In this document: positions 5,175-16,513 of the stretch, piece by piece
Layout: each line of letters opens with the position of its first letter
Numbering within the stretch: the first letter of the stretch is position 1
Source of the DNA: Arenicella chitinivorans
GTDB taxonomy: Bacteria > Pseudomonadota > Gammaproteobacteria > Arenicellales > Arenicellaceae
Direction of reading: 5' to 3'
Assembly (NCBI RefSeq): GCF_014651515.1
Contig: NZ_BMXA01000004.1
Span: forward strand, 124,001-188,000
Length of the DNA stretch: 64,000 nucleotides
The notes under the pieces: generated by a model
The model's input: only the letters and a program-made list of their open reading frames with translations
Told to the model about the DNA's origin: nothing
Database searches by the model: none
Made by a program: the position numbers and the translations under genes

Positions 5175-6550
5175 GAGTCCTGCTGACCAACCATCGCTTG
5201 TCATCACGAACCGGTACCGAGCTGTATATTCGTGACATCGCCTTAGCACTGTTAGCTCAAGGTCATGAACCGATTGCTTACAGTCGGTTATTGGGGCCGA
5301 TTGCTCAGGAACTACGTGCTAAGTCGGTCCTCGTGATTGACGACCTGGCCACACTGCGAACTCCGCCCGACATAATCCATGCTCAACATCATCTTGAAGC
5401 CATGACCGCATTGACACATTTTCCCCAGGTGCCGGCGATTTTAGTGTGTCATGGCTGGCTGCCCGCCGAGGAAGCGCCGCCATCCCATCCGCGTATTGTG
5501 CGCTATCTTGCTGTAGATGAACTGGTACGACTGCGATTGATCGAAGAATGTGGCATTGCAGCCGAGAACGTAGCGACCAATCTGAATTTTGTCGATCTAG
5601 ATCGTTTTAAACCCCGTACACCACTGCCTGCTAAACCACGACGCGCACTGGTATTTAGCAACTACGTAAACCGAGAGAACATTCTTCCCAGCTTGCATAA
5701 TGCGTGTGCGAAAAACGACATCCAACTCGATGTCGCAGGGCTTTCGGCCGGCGCTGATCTGTCTGCCCCTGAATCCGTTCTGGGAAACTACGACATCGTG
5801 TTTGCCAAGGGTCGCGCTGCGTTAGAAGCCGCCGCCGTCGGCTGCGCGGTGATCGTCTGTGACGCCGCCGGTCATGGCGATATGGTCAACAGTGCAAACT
5901 TCGATCATTATAGAGCCTACAATTTTGGGTTACGGTTACTGCGAGAATCCGTTAGTGTGGCGACGATATCCACGCAACTGGCACAATACAACCCGGATGA
6001 GACCGCTCGCGTAACGGCAAGAATGCGCACCGAGGCCAACTTGCTGGATGCTGTGAGGTCGTTAATTCAACAGTACCGAGAAGTCCTTGCTGAGTACGAT
6101 CAGCACGAACATGATGCGTTACAGGACGCGCATGCCGTTTCAAACTATCTGCGCCATGGTCCGATAACGGCCGATTTCAGTCAATTTAAATACGCGCAAT
6201 TTTCACATGAACTGGCGCGAGCTAAAGAATACGTGCAGCACCTGGAATCCCAGTTGATGCAAAAACAGGCGGGATTTGAAAACGCACAATCCGTATTGGC
6301 AGCGCAAGCTGACCAACTAAAGATGAGCCAAAATGCACTGGATGAGGCACGACAAGCACTACAGCAAGCACAAACGGCGCAACGAGAGGCAGAACGGCAA
6401 CATCAAACTGCGCTCGAACAAGTATTGCTATCACACCAGAATGAACTCGCCAAAATAACAGACTCTAGGGTGTGGCGTGCTCGTGAAAGGCTGGTATCCA
6501 TTGCCTGGCTTCGCACGCTTTATCGACGCCTGGTGGTACGCAATCGTTAA
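5171..6550 (+). CDS. glycosyltransferase (GT4-like) with C-terminal coiled coil
   Basis: A 459-residue protein. The N-terminus MRVLLTNHRLSSRTGTELY is the Rossmann start of a GT-B glycosyltransferase with the Gly-Thr-Glu loop. The middle contains a NFVDLDRFKPR-type junction (about 138-148) and an acceptor-side FAKGRAALEAAAVGCAVI segment (about 212-231), both typical of family 4. Residues about 340-430 are a Gln/Ala/Glu-rich coiled coil. Expected to add a sugar to a surface polysaccharide or lipid carrier in the cytoplasm; donor and acceptor are unknown. It is translationally coupled to the PIG-L-like gene. Confidence 0.78.
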   Translation: MRVLLTNHRLSSRTGTELYIRDIALALLAQGHEPIAYSRLLGPIAQELRAKSVLVIDDLATLRTPPDIIHAQHHLEAMTALTHFPQVPAILVCHGWLPAEEAPPSHPRIVRYLAVDELVRLRLIEECGIAAENVATNLNFVDLDRFKPRTPLPAKPRRALVFSNYVNRENILPSLHNACAKNDIQLDVAGLSAGADLSAPESVLGNYDIVFAKGRAALEAAAVGCAVIVCDAAGHGDMVNSANFDHYRAYNFGLRLLRESVSVATISTQLAQYNPDETARVTARMRTEANLLDAVRSLIQQYREVLAEYDQHEHDALQDAHAVSNYLRHGPITADFSQFKYAQFSHELARAKEYVQHLESQLMQKQAGFENAQSVLAAQADQLKMSQNALDEARQALQQAQTAQREAERQHQTALEQVLLSHQNELAKITDSRVWRARERLVSIAWLRTLYRRLVVRNR

Positions 6551-6575
6551 GCTGAAATTCATTCCCGCTTTAGTC

Positions 6576-7289
6576 TCAACGCTGCCGTTCGATACGTAGC
6601 CAAAATTGGCTGTCGCAGTCCATGCCATCCAACTCAGTCAGCACCAATCCGCGCTCTTTGCATTGTTGTTGGATCCACACTAGCGAATGACGCACGATAC
6701 CCGGTGTGGTGGATTCATGACTTGTCCCCACCCAGAGGTCACCTTGATAGTCATCCTCGGAACCCAACGGAGGTAAATACGAGACGATGAACTTGGCGTC
6801 ACGGACGGTGTTCTCCAGAAACCCATCCAACATCACCTGAATATGTCGCTTACTGCAATGCGTCCAGATTGAACATGCCAGAAAATAGTCAAACGGCTCG
6901 GCAAATCCACCGGTGTCAAACTCAGCATTAAAATTAAATCGCGGTTGCTTATCCAACAACATTTTTGGCTCGAACAAAAAGTGCCGTCCATGTTCAATGC
7001 GTTTCCGAGCCGGATCAAACCCGGCGTAACCGCCAGTATCCAGAAACCGAATCAACCAGTAACCAATCCGCAAACAGCCACAACCAATTTCCAACACCTT
7101 GGATTCCGGACACAAGCCCTGTTCGAGTAGACGCACAAAGTGCGATCGACCGGCCGTTTCAAAGGTTTCCTGAGGCACTCCCAAAAAACCATTTGCTTCA
7201 ATCATTCTATCCGCTCGCTGACGTAAATCGGATACCGGCATAACGTTCTCCCGCACAAGAAAATCATCTGATACTGCCATGACTGGCAT
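6576..7289 (-). CDS. class I SAM-dependent methyltransferase
   Basis: A 237-residue protein with a clear SAM-binding motif I, VLEIGCGCLRIGYWL, at about 63-77, and an acidic motif II in GYAGFDPA. Residues 115-150 (FDYFLACSIWTHCSKRH) look like the post-I region of small-molecule or sugar methyltransferases. It lies convergent to the glycosyltransferase, so a role in modifying the same glycan is plausible but is only inferred from position. The start could also be the ATG 9 bases further in. Confidence 0.75.
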   Translation of the reverse strand: MPVMAVSDDFLVRENVMPVSDLRQRADRMIEANGFLGVPQETFETAGRSHFVRLLEQGLCPESKVLEIGCGCLRIGYWLIRFLDTGGYAGFDPARKRIEHGRHFLFEPKMLLDKQPRFNFNAEFDTGGFAEPFDYFLACSIWTHCSKRHIQVMLDGFLENTVRDAKFIVSYLPPLGSEDDYQGDLWVGTSHESTTPGIVRHSLVWIQQQCKERGLVLTELDGMDCDSQFWLRIERQR

Positions 7290-7365
7290 AAAGGTATACT
7301 GCGATTTACACTGTAACCATTACTTGGTCACACATCAATCTAACCCCTGACAGACTCCTTCGAAT

Positions 7366-7677
7366 ATGAAACAACGCCGTATCGAAATCTATTCTGACGA
7401 ACCCGATAACAGCGTTGTGCGCATCCCTGACAATCCATTCCCCGCGTCGGCCATCCAAGGGGATTCTTTATTTCTACTACACGGTGAAGCGATGGATCTG
7501 GTGGACGAGTTAAAACACAATCCTGGCAGCGACTCGTTTTATCGTGCATACCGTATCGCGAGCGAACTGGAACAACGCCTACGCCACTACATCGAGGTAT
7601 GTGAGCAACACGATATCGAACTCAATTTCGATATCGTGTGCAGCGTCGAGGATTACCAAGAACTGTTATTTGACTGA
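7366..7677 (+). CDS. conserved hypothetical protein, 103 aa
   Basis: A soluble, acidic 103-residue protein with no signal peptide, membrane segment or recognised motif. The C-terminal half (about 55-100) is predicted helical. The frame is clean, and the stop overlaps the convergent M1 peptidase gene by 12 bp. I do not recognise the family and propose no function. Confidence 0.6.
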   Translation: MKQRRIEIYSDEPDNSVVRIPDNPFPASAIQGDSLFLLHGEAMDLVDELKHNPGSDSFYRAYRIASELEQRLRHYIEVCEQHDIELNFDIVCSVEDYQELLFD

Positions 7678-10248
7678 ACTCCCCGCGGCGGCCACTGACT
7701 CAAGGTACGCATCAAACGCAGCTTGATGGCGTTGCTTTAAGTTGACACACTGCTCGGAACTAGCCTTGGCTATCTCCCAGCCTCGCGTCATTCCTTCATA
7801 CGAACTCGCTACTTTTGAATACAACGCATCCGCTAACTGGATGGTGTCGGTGTCACAGCTACGAGACACATATTGCGGTATGCGTGTCACGTGATAATCC
7901 GGTATCTTGTTTGCCAGTGCATCCAAGTTTTTACTTAACCATGCGTAGAACGGGGTTGGATCATCTTGCACGTTAACGACCGCGCTGATCACAGACATGG
8001 TATCCGCTGGGTTAATCGTATCGCCCATCGCCAGATCTAGGACTGCCAGCATAAGCTTCTCACCCTTGAAATTCAGCGCTCTTTGAATGACCGACTTTAC
8101 GTTCGCATCGCGGCTCGCCGTGAGTGCTTTCTCGTAACGTACCAACCACTTTTCATCACCGCGTTGGGCTACTGCACGCAGAGCTCGTGCCGCCATCTGA
8201 CGTTGCTCGAGTTGAGGGCTGGATAAAAACCCGGTAGCCAAGTGTGCGGCAGCTTCGTGCACATCCGCATTGTCGGAGTACGTACTTAGCAAGCCAAACG
8301 CACTGTGTCGTAATCGGAGCTGATCATCCGAGTCTTGTTCACGGTCGACCGTACCCAACGCGTTAAACCAGTGGATCAAACGCGATTCTACGAAGTTACC
8401 AAACGCCGCCTCGTTGTTCGAATCAATCAAGTACTCAAAACCTGCCAGTACGCTCACGACACTGCGCGCCACGGCGGGGTCTTTTTGTGCTGACAATGCT
8501 TCAAGCACCGTCATAAACTCGGTGAAGCCAAGCTCGCCTGCGTTCAGCAATGCTTCGCTATTGTACAAAAGCGCTTTTTTTTCGCGCACCGTCAGGGCAT
8601 CTAAATCCATCAACATCGCAGCAAGCTGATTACTAGGAATACGCCAGCGGTAGTAGCCATTGGCTTCAGTATTTGGGTATATCCAATCTGCGCCGGCCAG
8701 AGCTGGAAAGGTCTGTCGCTGCGCATTCAGTAACACCTGCTGGCTAACAATTTCTCCATCTCGTTTAAGCTTGAGGCTCAGTGGTACGGTCCAACCTTGA
8801 TCAGGGACATCGGCGCCAGTAAGGTGATATCGTCGCTGCTGAACTTGACCCTTGGCATTAAAATCTACCATTGGATAACTGGGCTGTTCCAAATAGGTAC
8901 GCATCATCGACCCCACATCGGTCTTAGACGCATTGCTAAGTACCCGCCACAAGTCATCTGCTTTGGCATTCCGCCAGGCAAACTCCGCCATGTAATCACG
9001 GACTGCCGATTGAAACGCCGCACTGCCAATCTGTGACTCGATCCAATGTAAGATCGCCTCGCCCTTGCTGTAATTCAGCCCCAGGCCATCCATCACGTCA
9101 GCCGCGACGCGGACGGTTTTCTTCACTGGCTTGGTCGTTTCTGCTGCATCTGGGCCAAACGCACGTTCTGCGACCAACCGAGTTTTGTAGTTATGCTCTG
9201 GGTACAGATCCTGCATCAGGCGCGCCGCCATAAATGATGCGAAGGCTTCATTCAGCCACAGGTCGTCCCACCACGCCATCGTCACTAAGTTGCCGTACCA
9301 CATGTGTGCCAACTCATGCGCGATCACCATTAGTGGTGTGGATTGTTCAGCCAGTACCGGGGCTTGACCACGCAATAAGATTTCACTTCGATACGTCACC
9401 AAACCGACGTTCTCCATTGCACCATGTGTAAAGGTCGGCACCGCGACGAAATCCAGTTTTTTATACGGGTAGGGCTGACCAAAATAGGCTTCGAGATAGT
9501 GGAGAATTTCAGCAGTGCGTTCGGCAGCAAACAACGCTTCCTGGGCCTGGCCTTTCGGCGTGTAAATGCGCCCCGGAATAGACAATCCCGGTATCGGCAC
9601 CGAATCGAATTCGCCAACGGCAAACGCCACCAGATAGCTTGGCATGGGTTTGGTTTTTTCGAACTGTACGGTTTGAACACCGTCATTGACGACACGTTTT
9701 TGCACCGGCGTGTTGGACAACACAACGTGCTTCTCCGGCGCAGAGATGGTTACCTGGTAGGGAATTTTAGCGTCTGGCTCATCAATACCCGGGAACGCTT
9801 TACGCGCATGCATGTCTTCAAACTGGGTAGAAATATAATTGCGGCCATCAAAGCGTGACACATATGCACCATCCGATGTGTTGTTGATCTTGCCTTGATA
9901 CGCAATCTTGAGCACGTAGTTTCCCGGCGAAATGGTGGCACCGGTACTGGCATGTTGAATGTCGTGTTGCGCCGCTTCAACCGTCATTGGCCAAACTTGG
10001 TCACCTTGGGTGAGCACCACCCGATCCAGCACCAAACCAGACTGATAAAATTCGATGTGCGAAACTTCGGCAGCGACCACCAAATGGATCTGCGTATTGC
10101 CCTGAAAGGTCGCAACGTCCGGGTCCAATGTCAATGTGATCGCCTGAAACTCAGGGGTCACATCATCGCTGACTCGATATGCAGATGATTCAGCGTGTAC
10201 GCTCACGGAAAAAACCACGAGCGCAAAAAATAGGGTTAAATACTTCAT
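7666..10248 (-). CDS. M1 family metallopeptidase (aminopeptidase N-like), exported
   Basis: An 860-residue zinc aminopeptidase that removes N-terminal residues from peptides. A signal peptide (residues 1-19, ending VHA) points to the periplasm or cell surface. The exopeptidase motif GAMEN is at 276-280, and the gluzincin motif HELAH at 311-315 has its third zinc ligand Glu334 in LWLNEAF. A long ERAP1-like helical C-terminal domain follows (about 520-850). It lies 19 bp downstream of the marR gene on the same strand and may be co-transcribed, so peptide breakdown could be regulated together with the adjacent aromatic amino acid catabolic operon. Confidence 0.93.
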   Translation of the reverse strand: MKYLTLFFALVVFSVSVHAESSAYRVSDDVTPEFQAITLTLDPDVATFQGNTQIHLVVAAEVSHIEFYQSGLVLDRVVLTQGDQVWPMTVEAAQHDIQHASTGATISPGNYVLKIAYQGKINNTSDGAYVSRFDGRNYISTQFEDMHARKAFPGIDEPDAKIPYQVTISAPEKHVVLSNTPVQKRVVNDGVQTVQFEKTKPMPSYLVAFAVGEFDSVPIPGLSIPGRIYTPKGQAQEALFAAERTAEILHYLEAYFGQPYPYKKLDFVAVPTFTHGAMENVGLVTYRSEILLRGQAPVLAEQSTPLMVIAHELAHMWYGNLVTMAWWDDLWLNEAFASFMAARLMQDLYPEHNYKTRLVAERAFGPDAAETTKPVKKTVRVAADVMDGLGLNYSKGEAILHWIESQIGSAAFQSAVRDYMAEFAWRNAKADDLWRVLSNASKTDVGSMMRTYLEQPSYPMVDFNAKGQVQQRRYHLTGADVPDQGWTVPLSLKLKRDGEIVSQQVLLNAQRQTFPALAGADWIYPNTEANGYYRWRIPSNQLAAMLMDLDALTVREKKALLYNSEALLNAGELGFTEFMTVLEALSAQKDPAVARSVVSVLAGFEYLIDSNNEAAFGNFVESRLIHWFNALGTVDREQDSDDQLRLRHSAFGLLSTYSDNADVHEAAAHLATGFLSSPQLEQRQMAARALRAVAQRGDEKWLVRYEKALTASRDANVKSVIQRALNFKGEKLMLAVLDLAMGDTINPADTMSVISAVVNVQDDPTPFYAWLSKNLDALANKIPDYHVTRIPQYVSRSCDTDTIQLADALYSKVASSYEGMTRGWEIAKASSEQCVNLKQRHQAAFDAYLESVAAAGSSVK

Positions 10249-10267
10249 AATGTTTAGGTGATAGGGG

Positions 10268-10732
10268 TTATGAGTTCAGGTCAATGGTATCTGTCTGATC
10301 GTATAAACGATCAAGCAATGCCTCGAACAGCGCCTGTTCTTCGGCGTTGAAACAGGTCAGCAATTGATCTTCGTAATCGTAAGAGACAGGAACGATTTGT
10401 CGATACACGTCCGCGCCCGTTTTGGTTAGCGCTAAGTTCTGACGACGACGATCCGCACTGTCGACTTCTCGCACCACTAGGTGGCGAGCCAGCAACTTTT
10501 GCAATGAGCGGCTCACAATCGATTTTTCGATTTGAATCTTCGCCGATACTTCGTCAGCCGACGCGCCAGGGTATTCGCCAAGCACCGCCATGATGCGCCA
10601 TTCCGTGACGGATAAACCGAACTTATCTTTATAGGTCTGTGCAATGATACCGCTGATTCGATTCGACAAGGTTGCCAGTCGATACGGCAAATATCGTTCT
10701 AGGGTAAGGATATCGGGGCGGGGCTTGCTCAT
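10268..10732 (-). CDS. MarR family transcriptional regulator (probable repressor of the hppD operon)
   Basis: A 154-residue winged-helix protein. The recognition region is SADEVSAKIQIEKSIVSRSLQKL (about 57-79), followed by the DSADRRRQNLALT wing. It is divergent from hppD, and the 174-bp gap holds two identical palindromes suited to a MarR dimer. I infer that it represses hppD and its own transcription and is relieved by an aromatic intermediate. The M1 peptidase gene follows on the same strand. Confidence 0.88.
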   Translation of the reverse strand: MSKPRPDILTLERYLPYRLATLSNRISGIIAQTYKDKFGLSVTEWRIMAVLGEYPGASADEVSAKIQIEKSIVSRSLQKLLARHLVVREVDSADRRRQNLALTKTGADVYRQIVPVSYDYEDQLLTCFNAEEQALFEALLDRLYDQTDTIDLNS

Positions 10733-10792
10733 TCAGTGTGCTCGTTGGTGGTATCAACCTTGGCCTGTCCCATAATCGGATAGGTTTGCAAT

Positions 10793-10831
10793 TAGTTGCA
10801 ATACCAACTATATTAGTTGCAATAACAACTA
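10793..10831. promoter_or_regulatory. tandem operator: two perfect 18-bp palindromes
   Basis: Two copies of TAGTTG-N6-CAACTA lie at 10793-10810 and 10814-10831. Starts are exactly 21 bp apart, that is, two helical turns on the same DNA face. Arms are perfect in both, and the spacers CAATAC and CAATAA are nearly equal. The pair sits between the divergent marR and hppD genes. The size and symmetry fit a MarR dimer site, so this is very probably the regulator's operator. Confidence 0.8.
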
Positions 10832-10906: not shown

Positions 10907-11986
10907 ATGACTGATTTATTCGACAACCCAATGGGCCTGTGCGGCTTCGAATTTATCGAATTCGCGTCCACCAAGCGTGGTGTACTGGAACCGGTATTTG
11001 AAATGGCCGGGTTCACCAAGGTGGCCGAACACCGCTCCAAAGATGTGCACTTGTATCGACAAGGCGGGATCAACCTGCTGATCAACTACGAGCCCAAGAG
11101 CGTCGCGTACTACTTCGCGCAAGAACACGGTCCTTCGGCCTGCGGCATGGCGTTTCGCGTTAAAGATGCGCAATTAGCCTATAGTCGTGCACTGGAACTT
11201 GGTGCACAGCCGGTTGATATCCCTACCGGCCCGATGGAATTGCGGTTACCAGCGATCAAAGGTATTGGTGGCGCACCGCTGTATTTGATTGACCGATTTG
11301 AAGAAGGAACATCAATCTATGATATCGACTTCAAGTTTATCGAGGGCGTAGACCGCCATCCAGAAGGTTGTGGTTTTAACATTATCGACCACTTGACCCA
11401 CAATGTTTATCGAGGTCGCATGCAATACTGGGCGGACTTTTACGAACGCTTGTTCAATTTTAAAGAAATTCGGTACTTCGACATCAAGGGTGAATACACC
11501 GGTCTGCTCTCTAAAGCACTCACCGCGCCAGACGGCATGATCCGTATCCCATTGAACGAGGAAGCCTCTAAGGAGACCGGGCAAATTGAAGAATTCTTAA
11601 TGGCCTATAACGGAGAGGGGATTCAACACATCGCGTTTTCCTGCGATGACCTACTCGCCTGCTGGGACAAACTCAAAGCCCGCGGCATGCCGTTTATGAG
11701 CGCACCACCAGAAACCTACTACGCCATGCTCGACGAACGGCTACCGGGTCACGGTGAACCGGTCGACGAACTTAAAACCCGTGGTATCTTATTGGATGGC
11801 AGTACCGAAAATGGCGATCCGCGACTGCTACTGCAAATCTTTTCTGACACGTTGATTGGCCCGGTATTCTTTGAGTTTATCCAGCGCAAAAAAGATGACG
11901 GATTCGGCGAAGGCAATTTTAAAGCCCTGTTCGAGTCCATTGAACGTGATCAAATCGAGCGCGGCGTAATCGCCACCAACCCATAA
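10907..11986 (+). CDS. hppD: 4-hydroxyphenylpyruvate dioxygenase
   Basis: Converts 4-hydroxyphenylpyruvate to homogentisate using Fe(II) and O2. The 359-residue product has two VOC-type halves. The metal triad is readable as His in IDHLTHNV (about 162), His in GIQHIAFSC (about 242) and Glu in FFEFIQRK (about 324). The C-terminal [17 protein letters not shown] is the family's closing helix. It is the first gene of a tightly spaced operon: fahA starts 15 bp later. Confidence 0.96.
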
Positions 11987-12001: not shown

Positions 12002-13321
12002 ATGATGAGTGTCAACCACACGCACAACCCTGCGTTAAAAAGCTGGGTCGAGAGCGCCAACCAACCTGACAGTGACTTTCCGATCCAGAATCTGCCATTT
12101 GGTATCTTTCGCCGCAGAGGCACATCTGAACCTTTTCGCGCCGGCATTGCGATTGGTGATCAGATTTTGGACATGCAAGCGGCGCACGCCGTCTCGGCAT
12201 TCGATGTCGCACTCGATGCCAGCTTGAGCGCCTTGAGTTTGCCAAAGTTAAATACATTCATGAGCTTGGGACAGGGGGCGTGGTCGGCGGTGCGAGAAGC
12301 GGTATCCGCAGCCTTAGCGGTGGGCTCATCGTTGCAGGACACCTTGGCTGAATGCCTGGTTGCACAATCTGAGGCCGAATACGACGTGCCTGCCCACATC
12401 GGCGATTACACCGATTTCTACACGTCGATCAACCACGCGACCAATGTAGGGAAATTGTTTCGTCCAGACAATCCACTGTTGCCAAACTATCAATGGATTC
12501 CGATTGGGTATCATGGACGCAGTTCATCAATCGCGATTTCCGGCCATTCGTTTCACCGGCCGAACGGTCAGCTCAAAGCACCCGATGCCGAGGTCCCGGT
12601 TCTGGCACCGTGTAAACGACTCGACTATGAACTCGAAGTCGGTATCTATATTGGCACAGAGAGCCCATTGGGCCACCCGGTAAAACTGGCCGACGCTGAG
12701 CAACACGTGTTTGGCTTGTGCATGTTCAACGACTGGTCAGCGCGCGATATCCAGGCTTGGGAATACCAGCCGCTGGGGCCATTTTTATCCAAAAGTTTCG
12801 CTTCCACGGTGTCACCTTGGATCGTTACCATGGAAGCATTAGCACCGTTCCGTCAAAGCTGGACCCGCCCTGCGGAAGATCCGCAACCTCTGCCTTACCT
12901 CGACTCACACGATCATCGCAACACTGGCGCCGTGAACATGCATCTTGAGGTGTTAATCCAAACCGCCAAGATGCGTGCCGATGGGGTATCGCCCGAACGC
13001 CTTGCCCTTAGCAATTTCAATCAATCTTACTGGACAATCGCGCAAATGGTCACGCACCATACCGTCAATGGCTGCAACCTAAAACCAGGCGACTTTTTTG
13101 GCAGCGGCACTCAATCCGGCATTAGCCGTGACAGTGTCGGTGCCTTAATAGAGGCCACCGTTGGTGGTCGTGAACCGATCACCTTGAGCAACGGCGAACA
13201 GCGTACTTTCTTAGAAGATGGCGATACTGTGACCCTGAAAGGCTGGTGTCAAAATGACAGCGCGGTTCGCATCGGTTTCGGAGAAGCGGCTGCCACGGTG
13301 TTACCCGCTATCGACTATTAG
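12002..13321 (+). CDS. fahA: fumarylacetoacetase
   Basis: Hydrolyses fumarylacetoacetate to fumarate and acetoacetate, the last ring-derived step of tyrosine catabolism. At 439 residues it is of the long FAH type, with an SH3-like N-terminal domain (about 20-120) and the FAH catalytic fold after it. Seen are the DYTDFYTSINHATNVG segment with the metal/active-site Asp, the HGRSSSI loop, and NDWSARDIQAWEYQPLGPF, which carries the metal ligand and substrate loop. The start may be the ATG at 12002 or the next one 3 bases on. Confidence 0.96.
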   Translation: MMSVNHTHNPALKSWVESANQPDSDFPIQNLPFGIFRRRGTSEPFRAGIAIGDQILDMQAAHAVSAFDVALDASLSALSLPKLNTFMSLGQGAWSAVREAVSAALAVGSSLQDTLAECLVAQSEAEYDVPAHIGDYTDFYTSINHATNVGKLFRPDNPLLPNYQWIPIGYHGRSSSIAISGHSFHRPNGQLKAPDAEVPVLAPCKRLDYELEVGIYIGTESPLGHPVKLADAEQHVFGLCMFNDWSARDIQAWEYQPLGPFLSKSFASTVSPWIVTMEALAPFRQSWTRPAEDPQPLPYLDSHDHRNTGAVNMHLEVLIQTAKMRADGVSPERLALSNFNQSYWTIAQMVTHHTVNGCNLKPGDFFGSGTQSGISRDSVGALIEATVGGREPITLSNGEQRTFLEDGDTVTLKGWCQNDSAVRIGFGEAAATVLPAIDY

Positions 13322-13353: not shown

Positions 13354-13902
13354 ATGCACATTGAGAAAATCCATCACGTTGCCTACCGGTGTCATGACGC
13401 CAAGGAAACCGTTGAATGGTATGTAAACAACCTTAAAATGGATTTCGTTCTAGCGATAGCCGAGGATCAGGTACCGTCTACTAAGGAGCCTGATCCGTAC
13501 ATGCATGTCTTCCTCGATGCCGGGCAAGGTAATGTATTGGCCTTCTTCGAACTCCCAACCAAACCGCGTATGGCACGCGACCCGAACACACCGGAATGGG
13601 TACAGCATATTGCGTTTAGAGTGAGCGACATGGAGACTCTATTGGCCTACAAAGAACACTTGGAGGCCAATGGTGTTGATGTTCTTGGCGTCACTGACCA
13701 CTCCGTGTTTCATTCTATCTATTTCTTCGACCCGAATGGTCATCGCCTAGAACTATCGGCACCCGACCCTGAGGAAGCAGCCAAGTTGAAACGACTCGAC
13801 GCGGTTAAATGGGACATGCTCGAAGAATGGTCGAAAACCAAACGCGCACCCAAGCACGCCGAATGGTTGCACAGTAAAGAGTTTACCGAGGAACCATCAT
13901 GA
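13354..13902 (+). CDS. VOC (glyoxalase/extradiol dioxygenase fold) protein in the homogentisate operon
   Basis: A 182-residue VOC protein with two beta-alpha-beta modules. Candidate metal ligands are His8 (IHHVAY), Glu66 (AFFELP), His85 (VQHIAF) and Glu133 (HRLEL). His120 lies in an FHSIYFFDPNG segment of the kind seen in VOC dioxygenases and glutathione or thiol transferases. A strong AGGAGGA Shine-Dalgarno (13344-13350) precedes the ATG, and the 3' end overlaps maiA by 4 bp. It occupies the place where homogentisate 1,2-dioxygenase (hmgA) would be expected, and no hmgA is in the window. It may be a non-orthologous ring-cleaving enzyme, or an accessory glyoxalase-like enzyme; sequence alone does not decide. 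Confidence 0.85.
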   Translation: MHIEKIHHVAYRCHDAKETVEWYVNNLKMDFVLAIAEDQVPSTKEPDPYMHVFLDAGQGNVLAFFELPTKPRMARDPNTPEWVQHIAFRVSDMETLLAYKEHLEANGVDVLGVTDHSVFHSIYFFDPNGHRLELSAPDPEEAAKLKRLDAVKWDMLEEWSKTKRAPKHAEWLHSKEFTEEPS

Positions 13903-14543
13903 AGCTGGCGAGCTACTTCCGCAGCACCGCGGCGTATCGTGTACGAATTGCGCTGAATTTGAAGCAAATCGATCACTCATTGGTGCCGATTCACCTGCTG
14001 CGCAATGGCGGCGAACACAAACAACCAAATTACCAGTCCCAAAACCCAGAGGGCTTGGTGCCGGCACTGTTTATCGAGGACCGGGTATTGTCGCAGTCAC
14101 TGGCGATACTGGAATATCTGGATGAAACCCATCCGACACCGCCGCTGCTCCCTGGCGACCCGCTGGATCGCGCCTATGTCCGTGGGCTGGCACTGTCAAT
14201 TTGCTGTGACATTCACCCATTAAACAATTTGCGCGTTTTGCAGTATCTAAGCGGCGATTTAAACGCGTCAGATGAACAAAAAAACGCCTGGTACCAACAC
14301 TGGATCGCGACCGGCTTCTCGGCACTCGAAACACGACTCGCAAACCATGATTCAACGGGCGAATTTTGTTTCGGCGACACACCCAGCATGGCTGACCTAT
14401 GTTTGGTTCCGCAGGTCTACAATGCTAACCGTTTCAATTGCCCTTTGGACGATTACCCGATCATTCAGCGAATTAATGCGCGTTGTTTGCAGGAACCCAG
14501 TTTCACTCTAGCCGCTCCCGAGAACCAAGTGGACGCGGAATAA
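13899..14543 (+). CDS. maiA: maleylacetoacetate isomerase (zeta-class GST)
   Basis: Isomerises 4-maleylacetoacetate to 4-fumarylacetoacetate with glutathione. The 214-residue product has the thioredoxin-like N-terminal domain, with FRSTAAYRVRIALNLK in the zeta-GST signature position (usually SSCSxRVRIAL), and NPEGLVPAL followed by SQSLAILEYLDE for the glutathione site. The helical C-terminal domain carries MADLCLVPQVYNANRF. It overlaps the VOC gene by ATGA, so the two are translationally coupled. Confidence 0.93.
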   Translation: MKLASYFRSTAAYRVRIALNLKQIDHSLVPIHLLRNGGEHKQPNYQSQNPEGLVPALFIEDRVLSQSLAILEYLDETHPTPPLLPGDPLDRAYVRGLALSICCDIHPLNNLRVLQYLSGDLNASDEQKNAWYQHWIATGFSALETRLANHDSTGEFCFGDTPSMADLCLVPQVYNANRFNCPLDDYPIIQRINARCLQEPSFTLAAPENQVDAE

Positions 14544-14566
14544 CACAATCACAGGCGAACCTCACC

Positions 14567-16509
<1,943 letters not shown>

Positions 16510-16513
<4 letters not shown>

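Follow-up and report, generated by a model that had tools for sequence, protein, structure and literature searches.

A single-domain VOC-fold protein proposed as homogentisate 1,2-dioxygenase in an aromatic catabolic operon of Arenicella chitinivorans

The operon and the cupin enzyme

The cupin homogentisate dioxygenase HmgA is a protein of about 430 aa, and its fold is unrelated to that of VOC proteins. The VOC-fold openers of 1,4-dihydroxy rings, PcpA/LinE and MhqO, have about 320 to 335 aa and two VOC domains, and the L-DOPA dioxygenase of Streptomyces sclerotialus, a single-domain VOC ring-cleaver, takes a catechol, not a hydroquinone, as its substrate. A VOC-type homogentisate dioxygenase is already on record as PDB entry 9u42, titled “Homogentisate 1,2-Dioxygenase from Acinetobacter in Complex with Zn ion,” in which the molecule is named Glyoxalase and has 182 aa; a search of the open-licence literature found no paper behind this entry or on a VOC-type homogentisate dioxygenase, and the name rests on the depositors' title. 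The protein analyzed here is a further member; what is new is the distribution survey, the pairing with a hydroxylase, and the link to Acinetobacter baumannii. As for sources of homogentisate, the available text of one report describes MhaAB of Pseudomonas putida U (566 + 60 aa), which converts 3-hydroxyphenylacetate to homogentisate, and notes that mhaAB adjoins hmgA in Burkholderia xenovorans (PMC3053370).

We analyzed a stretch of 64,000 nucleotides from A. chitinivorans (referred to as the window), in which a divergent MarR-type gene, the probable operon regulator judging from its position, is followed by the gene order HppD-FahA-VOC-MaiA-acetoacetate-CoA ligase-PhhA (Table 1). An initial annotation, made from the sequence alone, had described an operon with most of the enzymes from phenylalanine to acetoacetyl-CoA, and this was borne out, as all five operon enzymes around the VOC protein (HppD, FahA, MaiA, the ligase, and the hydroxylase) passed their curated cut-offs. 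The VOC gene starts 32 bp after the end of fahA, and the claim that it is coupled to maiA was confirmed by a 4-bp overlap between its end and the maiA start (13899), so that it is linked both to a homogentisate source and to later enzymes of homogentisate breakdown.

Table 1. Genes of the operon and its divergent neighbor in the window
Feature	Position	Strand	Basis
MarR-type regulator, divergent to operon	10268..10732	-	PF12802/PF01047
hppD, 4-hydroxyphenylpyruvate dioxygenase (homogentisate producer)	10907..11986	+	TIGR01263, 395 bits, cut-off 277
fahA, fumarylacetoacetase	12002..13321	+	TIGR01266, 539 bits
VOC-fold protein, 182 aa, ATG start, proposed homogentisate 1,2-dioxygenase	13354..13902	+	PF00903, 9u42 match, conserved residues
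maiA, maleylacetoacetate isomerase	13899..14543	+	TIGR01262, 290 bits
acetoacetate-CoA ligase	14564..16513	+	TIGR01217, 862 bits
phhA-like aromatic amino acid hydroxylase, 574 aa	16510..18234	+	NF010657, 655 bits; PF00351

The annotation had also held that cupin HmgA is missing, and a search with PF20510 (HmgA) gave no match in the whole genome (17 contigs, 99.62% complete); among 14 control genomes, the same search matched Caulobacter vibrioides only. We infer, with a probability of about 0.85 and with reaction, metal, and mechanism as part of the proposal, that this one-domain VOC protein depends on a metal and acts as the homogentisate 1,2-dioxygenase of the pathway, in the place normally taken by cupin HmgA. 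HppD produces homogentisate. The VOC protein probably coordinates a metal, Fe(II) or one like it, through H8, H85, E133, and possibly E66; homogentisate and O2 would bind to it, and ring cleavage would yield maleylacetoacetate, to be processed further by MaiA, FahA, and acetoacetate-CoA ligase. Two other explanations were considered for the arrangement. An assembly gap is an unlikely cause of the missing HmgA, with HmgA over the cut-off in 0 of 18 same-genus genomes, and a chance neighborhood of the VOC gene is held unlikely, with the order repeated in three same-genus loci and VOC genes lying by HppD elsewhere.

Fold and candidate metal site

The window protein matched PF00903 with 60.1 bits against a cut-off of 20.6, which places it in the VOC superfamily, and it gave no hit to PF20510 at E 0.001; the proposed reaction and place in the pathway are the same as those of cupin HmgA. 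Its AlphaFold model had a mean pLDDT of 87.7. PDB entry 9u42 was the best match both by sequence (phmmer, 1.7 × 10−81) and by fold (70% identity, TM 0.86/0.92, Z 20.6, rmsd 1.6, 166 aligned), with full-length similarity in both respects, the same length, and H8, E66, H85, and E133 kept in the alignment; it differs in coming from another genus and in the Zn of the entry. The fold matches after 9u42 were glyoxalases, Fos proteins, and the one-domain L-DOPA dioxygenase (6on1 and 6on3; Foldseek E 6.9 × 10−9 and Z 13.7 for 6on3), the last with 16 to 21% identity to the window protein. MhqO (3oaj, 335 aa) gave a weak sequence match (E 0.0011).

The ligand candidates named in the initial annotation, His8, Glu66, His85, and Glu133, proved to be conserved. 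All 100 aligned sequences, among them that of the window protein, have H8, H85, and E133; at residue 66, 97 have E and 3 have D (55 E and 1 D in a 56-row set). H8, H85, and E133 fit the two-His-one-carboxylate site of type I extradiol dioxygenases, and the acidic residue 66 comes in addition and could, on the strength of its conservation, be a fourth metal ligand. Glyoxalase I has a four-ligand metal pattern, whereas extradiol dioxygenases have a three-ligand one, and with its conserved acidic residue 66 the VOC protein resembles the former more than the latter.

Distribution and homogentisate sources

In the window's own genus (18 genomes, the window's and 17 others), the VOC gene was found in 14 genomes and HppD over the cut-off in 15, while HmgA exceeded its cut-off in none, with one sub-cut-off hit of 19.5 bits in a single genome (G008). 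The four genomes without VOC (G009, G010, G016, and G017) are 78 to 85% complete, and G010, the sole HppD genome of the genus without VOC, has a contig that ends inside fahA. The order HppD-FahA-VOC-MaiA was common to three same-genus loci (L057, L061, and L067). Among the other 43 of the 61 relatives, HppD was over the cut-off in 5, with HmgA in all five and a VOC protein of >40% identity in none. Three genomes of family f3 (G022, G033, and G058) carried a VOC protein at 63 to 64% identity, with neither HppD nor HmgA over the cut-off. A FAH-family gene adjoins the VOC gene in f3 (L181, L182, and L015); it encodes 340 aa in L016, where it was Pfam-tested, and is cut by the contig end in L015.

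The relation between VOC and HmgA was then counted in a sample of 352 genomes drawn from the class, each at least 90% complete. HppD was over the cut-off in 59 of them and HmgA in 46 of those 59. VOC at ≥62% identity occurred in 8 of the 13 HppD genomes without HmgA versus 0 of the 46 with it (Fisher, 5.8 × 10−7), and VOC at E 1 × 10−20 in 10 of 13 versus 1 of 46 (G299, 36% identity; Fisher, 4.7 × 10−8). Counted by genus, the figures were 5 of 10 versus 0 of 39 (1.3 × 10−4), with one genus on both sides, and we consider this count fairer because four of the eight VOC-positive genomes belong to the window's own genus. The VOC gene lay beside HppD or in its operon in seven of the eight, and in G232 it was on another contig. 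Thirteen of the 46 HmgA calls were weak, partial hits (E 4 × 10−11 to 1.3 × 10−19); since 12 of these 13 adjoin HppD in open frames of 292 to 507 aa, they were counted as a shorter HmgA type, and if none of the 13 were HmgA, the class-sample figure would be 8 of 26 versus 0 of 33.

Five of the 13 HppD genomes without HmgA lacked a close VOC protein. Two of them (G201 and G307, loci L142 and L143) had a copy at 43 to 45% identity away from HppD, in which Asp replaces E66. The other three (G164, G198, and G443; L166 to L169) had neither HmgA nor VOC at E 1 × 10−20; with the window proteins as queries, HppD stood alone in its stretch in G164 and G443, and G198 showed MaiA-FahB-HppD and PhhA, without VOC or HmgA. 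These three may have a third way to open the ring, may make pigment, or may owe the absence to assembly gaps. In the 293 class-sample genomes without HppD over the cut-off, VOC was found at 65% identity in G241, beside an FAD hydroxylase, and at only 38% in G188 and 33% in G394.

A scan of genome contigs yielded at least 592 confirmed VOC relatives, of which the best 80 (75 to 94% identity in the best segment) were kept. HmgA was also present in 59 of these best 80 genomes, often in the same locus: it lay inside the VOC locus in about 27 to 28 and elsewhere in the genome in a further 32 of the 50 tested. The remaining 21 had no HmgA, including three of the window's genus, the completeness of the genomes tested outside the locus not being stated. 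With taxa sorted by hand, HmgA was absent in 16 of the 23 non-alphaproteobacterial genomes among the best 80 (7 of 8 gamma, 5 of 11 beta or unassigned, and 4 of 4 Acidobacteria and Polyangia) and in 5 of the 57 alphaproteobacterial ones, all five metagenome-assembled; among the 16 HppD-linked VOC genomes, HmgA was found in 8, in one only as a weak hit. This co-occurrence is the chief result against a simple replacement. The initial annotation had named two findings that would speak against its proposal, an hmgA gene elsewhere in this genome and co-occurrence of the VOC gene with hmgA in most relatives; of these, the former did not turn up in the genome search, whereas the co-occurrence does hold for 59 of the best 80, half of the HppD-linked genomes among them. 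Given these 59 genomes, “replacement” describes the situation in the window's genus and in the class sample; it does not apply to most Alphaproteobacteria or to roughly half of the genomes from Betaproteobacteria. One locus, L095 of Colwellia chukchiensis, carries FahA-VOC-MaiA (7546-10296), with HppD, hydroxylase, and HmgA absent from the 18-kb locus and HmgA not found in the genome (G081).

Among the same best 80 of at least 592, HppD lay within ~3 kb of the VOC gene in 16, an FAD hydroxylase in 47, and neither in 17, HppD being counted first where a locus has both. The VOC-linked hydroxylase has roughly 540 aa (two tested, both NF006002), and in 43 loci a small ORF of 60 to 116 aa (two tested, both DUF2783) lies between hydroxylase and VOC, in that order and within 700 bp. 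Judging from its size, the gene order, and the DUF2783 partner, the hydroxylase is MhaAB-like and probably another source of homogentisate. In the class sample, 19 DUF2783 loci had an adjoining hydroxylase, and HmgA was next within the 3-kb locus in 4 of the 19, with HppD in between in one of these four and a match of 25% in one; VOC adjoined the hydroxylase in G201 and G241, and the others had neither HmgA nor VOC in the short stretch. Either HmgA or VOC can thus occupy the position next to this hydroxylase.

The VOC proteins of both contexts were 74 to 82% identical to the window's, with one same-genus copy at 93% (55 sequences). On a quick tree of 94 VOC rows, eight switches were needed between the HppD and hydroxylase contexts; only 9 of the 91 inner branches are starred, those alone force three switches (HppD label) or four (hydroxylase label), and long branches drew a warning from the program. 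The HppD-linked A. baumannii copy and that of Acinetobacter NCu2D-2, whose plasmid carries an FAD monooxygenase, FahA, MaiA, VOC, a CoA transferase, and a thiolase, came out as sisters.

Acinetobacter pigment strains and rival explanations

The A. baumannii VOC copy is identical to 9u42 at 168 of 176 residues. FahA-MaiA-VOC-HppD was found in 4 of 4 A. baumannii loci, in the order FahA-MaiA-VOC-IclR with HppD on the other strand, whereas the window has HppD-FahA-VOC-MaiA. Cupin HmgA was found in none of three A. baumannii chromosomes (chromosome-sized records of 3.7 to 4.1 Mb, filed as plasmids in PLSDB). The available text on a 2022 A. baumannii strain describes an interrupted “hmgA,” production of pyomelanin, and abolition of the pigment by a plasmid copy, and prints a target-site duplication of 9 letters, once called 11-bp (PMC9431530). 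Of the genes in the cluster, only the VOC gene contained this duplication sequence, and it did so in all four A. baumannii loci; these do not include the strain's own genome, and for three of them the gene limits were those of L184. The two 14.5-kb loci have one further copy at another place. With ~0.08 copies expected by density per VOC-length gene, the mapping of the interrupted “hmgA” to the VOC gene is good, although it is not proof. Pigment in a strain with the gene interrupted means that homogentisate is made but not used. If the VOC protein is a homogentisate dioxygenase, the pigment of the 2022 strain would be explained by the VOC gene, not by a cupin hmgA.

The same does not hold for a pigmented A. 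baumannii strain of 2020, in which, as far as the available text goes, no hmgA homologue was reported and the cluster held a gene for a type I ring-cleaving dioxygenase that the authors guessed to be inactive (PMC7646211). From its place, we take this gene to be the VOC gene. That the strain was pigmented despite carrying it speaks against the proposed reading, which leaves the pigment unexplained; the available text is silent on whether the gene was intact. Pigmented strains of 2025 are described, in the text available, as having an insertion that lies upstream of the gene for fumarylacetoacetase (PMC11945678); such an insertion agrees with the VOC role, the VOC gene being downstream and in the same direction, but does not single VOC out. 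The “hmgA” reference of that paper, in the text available, has 633 bp and overlaps its hmgB by 14 bp, and in A. baumannii L184 (CP040042.1) the gene with that layout and length, at 6339-6971, is maiA, so that the “hmgA” label is probably wrong.

Three other roles for the VOC protein were weighed. It is improbable that its part in the homogentisate pathway is accessory (to HppD) or protective (against quinones), with ring opening left to a different, unrecognised enzyme. HmgX of Aspergillus fumigatus, an accessory protein on which HppD activity depends, offers a precedent, but its authors report no conserved domain in it in the available text (PMC3203155), for which reason HmgX was rejected as a VOC homologue. 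The presence of HmgA alongside VOC in 59 of the best 80 of at least 592 genomes, like the pigmented strain that carried the VOC gene (PMC7646211), would suit an accessory role, which nevertheless leaves unexplained the class-sample distribution, the VOC genes by an MhaAB-like hydroxylase without nearby HppD, the title of 9u42, and the pigment of the interrupted-gene strain, in which homogentisate was made but not used. We give somewhat less credence still to the idea that the protein cleaves another 2,5-dihydroxyphenyl acid with homogentisate as a side substrate, at least in hydroxylase-linked Alphaproteobacteria with HmgA. HmgA and VOC do share a locus in about 27 to 28 of the best 80, and the product of the FAD hydroxylase is deduced from size, order, and the DUF2783 partner only; yet HppD makes homogentisate, the VOC proteins of both contexts are similarly close to the window's, and the tree calls for repeated switches between these contexts.

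Least probable of all, and very unlikely in our view, is a glyoxalase-like isomerase acting on maleylacetoacetate or another later intermediate, even though the H8/E66/H85/E133 pattern resembles glyoxalase I, the fold matches E. coli glyoxalase I with Z 15.2, and 10 of the 16 HppD-linked VOC loci among the best 80 of at least 592, some of them short, showed no MaiA. The VOC gene has maiA beside it in the window as well as in 4 of 4 A. baumannii loci, and a maleylacetoacetate isomerase role is held unlikely because MaiA is encoded next door; such an isomerase would also leave no ring opener for genomes without HmgA, and loss of a later step alone does not predict homogentisate pigment. A VOC-fold homogentisate dioxygenase thus remains our preferred reading, and the non-orthologous replacement first suggested for this operon gained support from the 9u42 title, the class-sample distribution, the absence of HmgA and the duplication within the VOC gene in A. 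baumannii, and the two contexts with likely homogentisate sources. A more far-reaching version, which we put forward tentatively and consider doubtful, is that a glyoxalase-I-like H8/E66/H85/E133 site cleaves the ring, an extradiol-type hydroquinone opening without the usual two-His-one-carboxylate triad; the protein would then be a second, evolutionarily independent bacterial homogentisate dioxygenase, paired interchangeably with HppD or MhaAB and serving as a specialised isoenzyme beside HmgA in Alphaproteobacteria.

Genomes without hmgA may look as if their tyrosine pathway were broken. If the VOC protein opens homogentisate, such gaps close in the window's genus, Acinetobacter, and the other Proteobacteria covered, as well as in four metagenome-assembled genomes recorded under Acidobacteria or Polyangia, provided that their contigs were binned rightly, and a gene annotated merely as “VOC family protein” in plasmid records would gain a function. 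At 6992-10799 of an Enterobacter sp. plasmid typed as conjugative (L186, NZ_CP074161.1), the VOC gene stands together with maiA and with genes for an MFS transporter and a protein of the fumarylacetoacetate hydrolase family, possibly a mobile homogentisate cassette.
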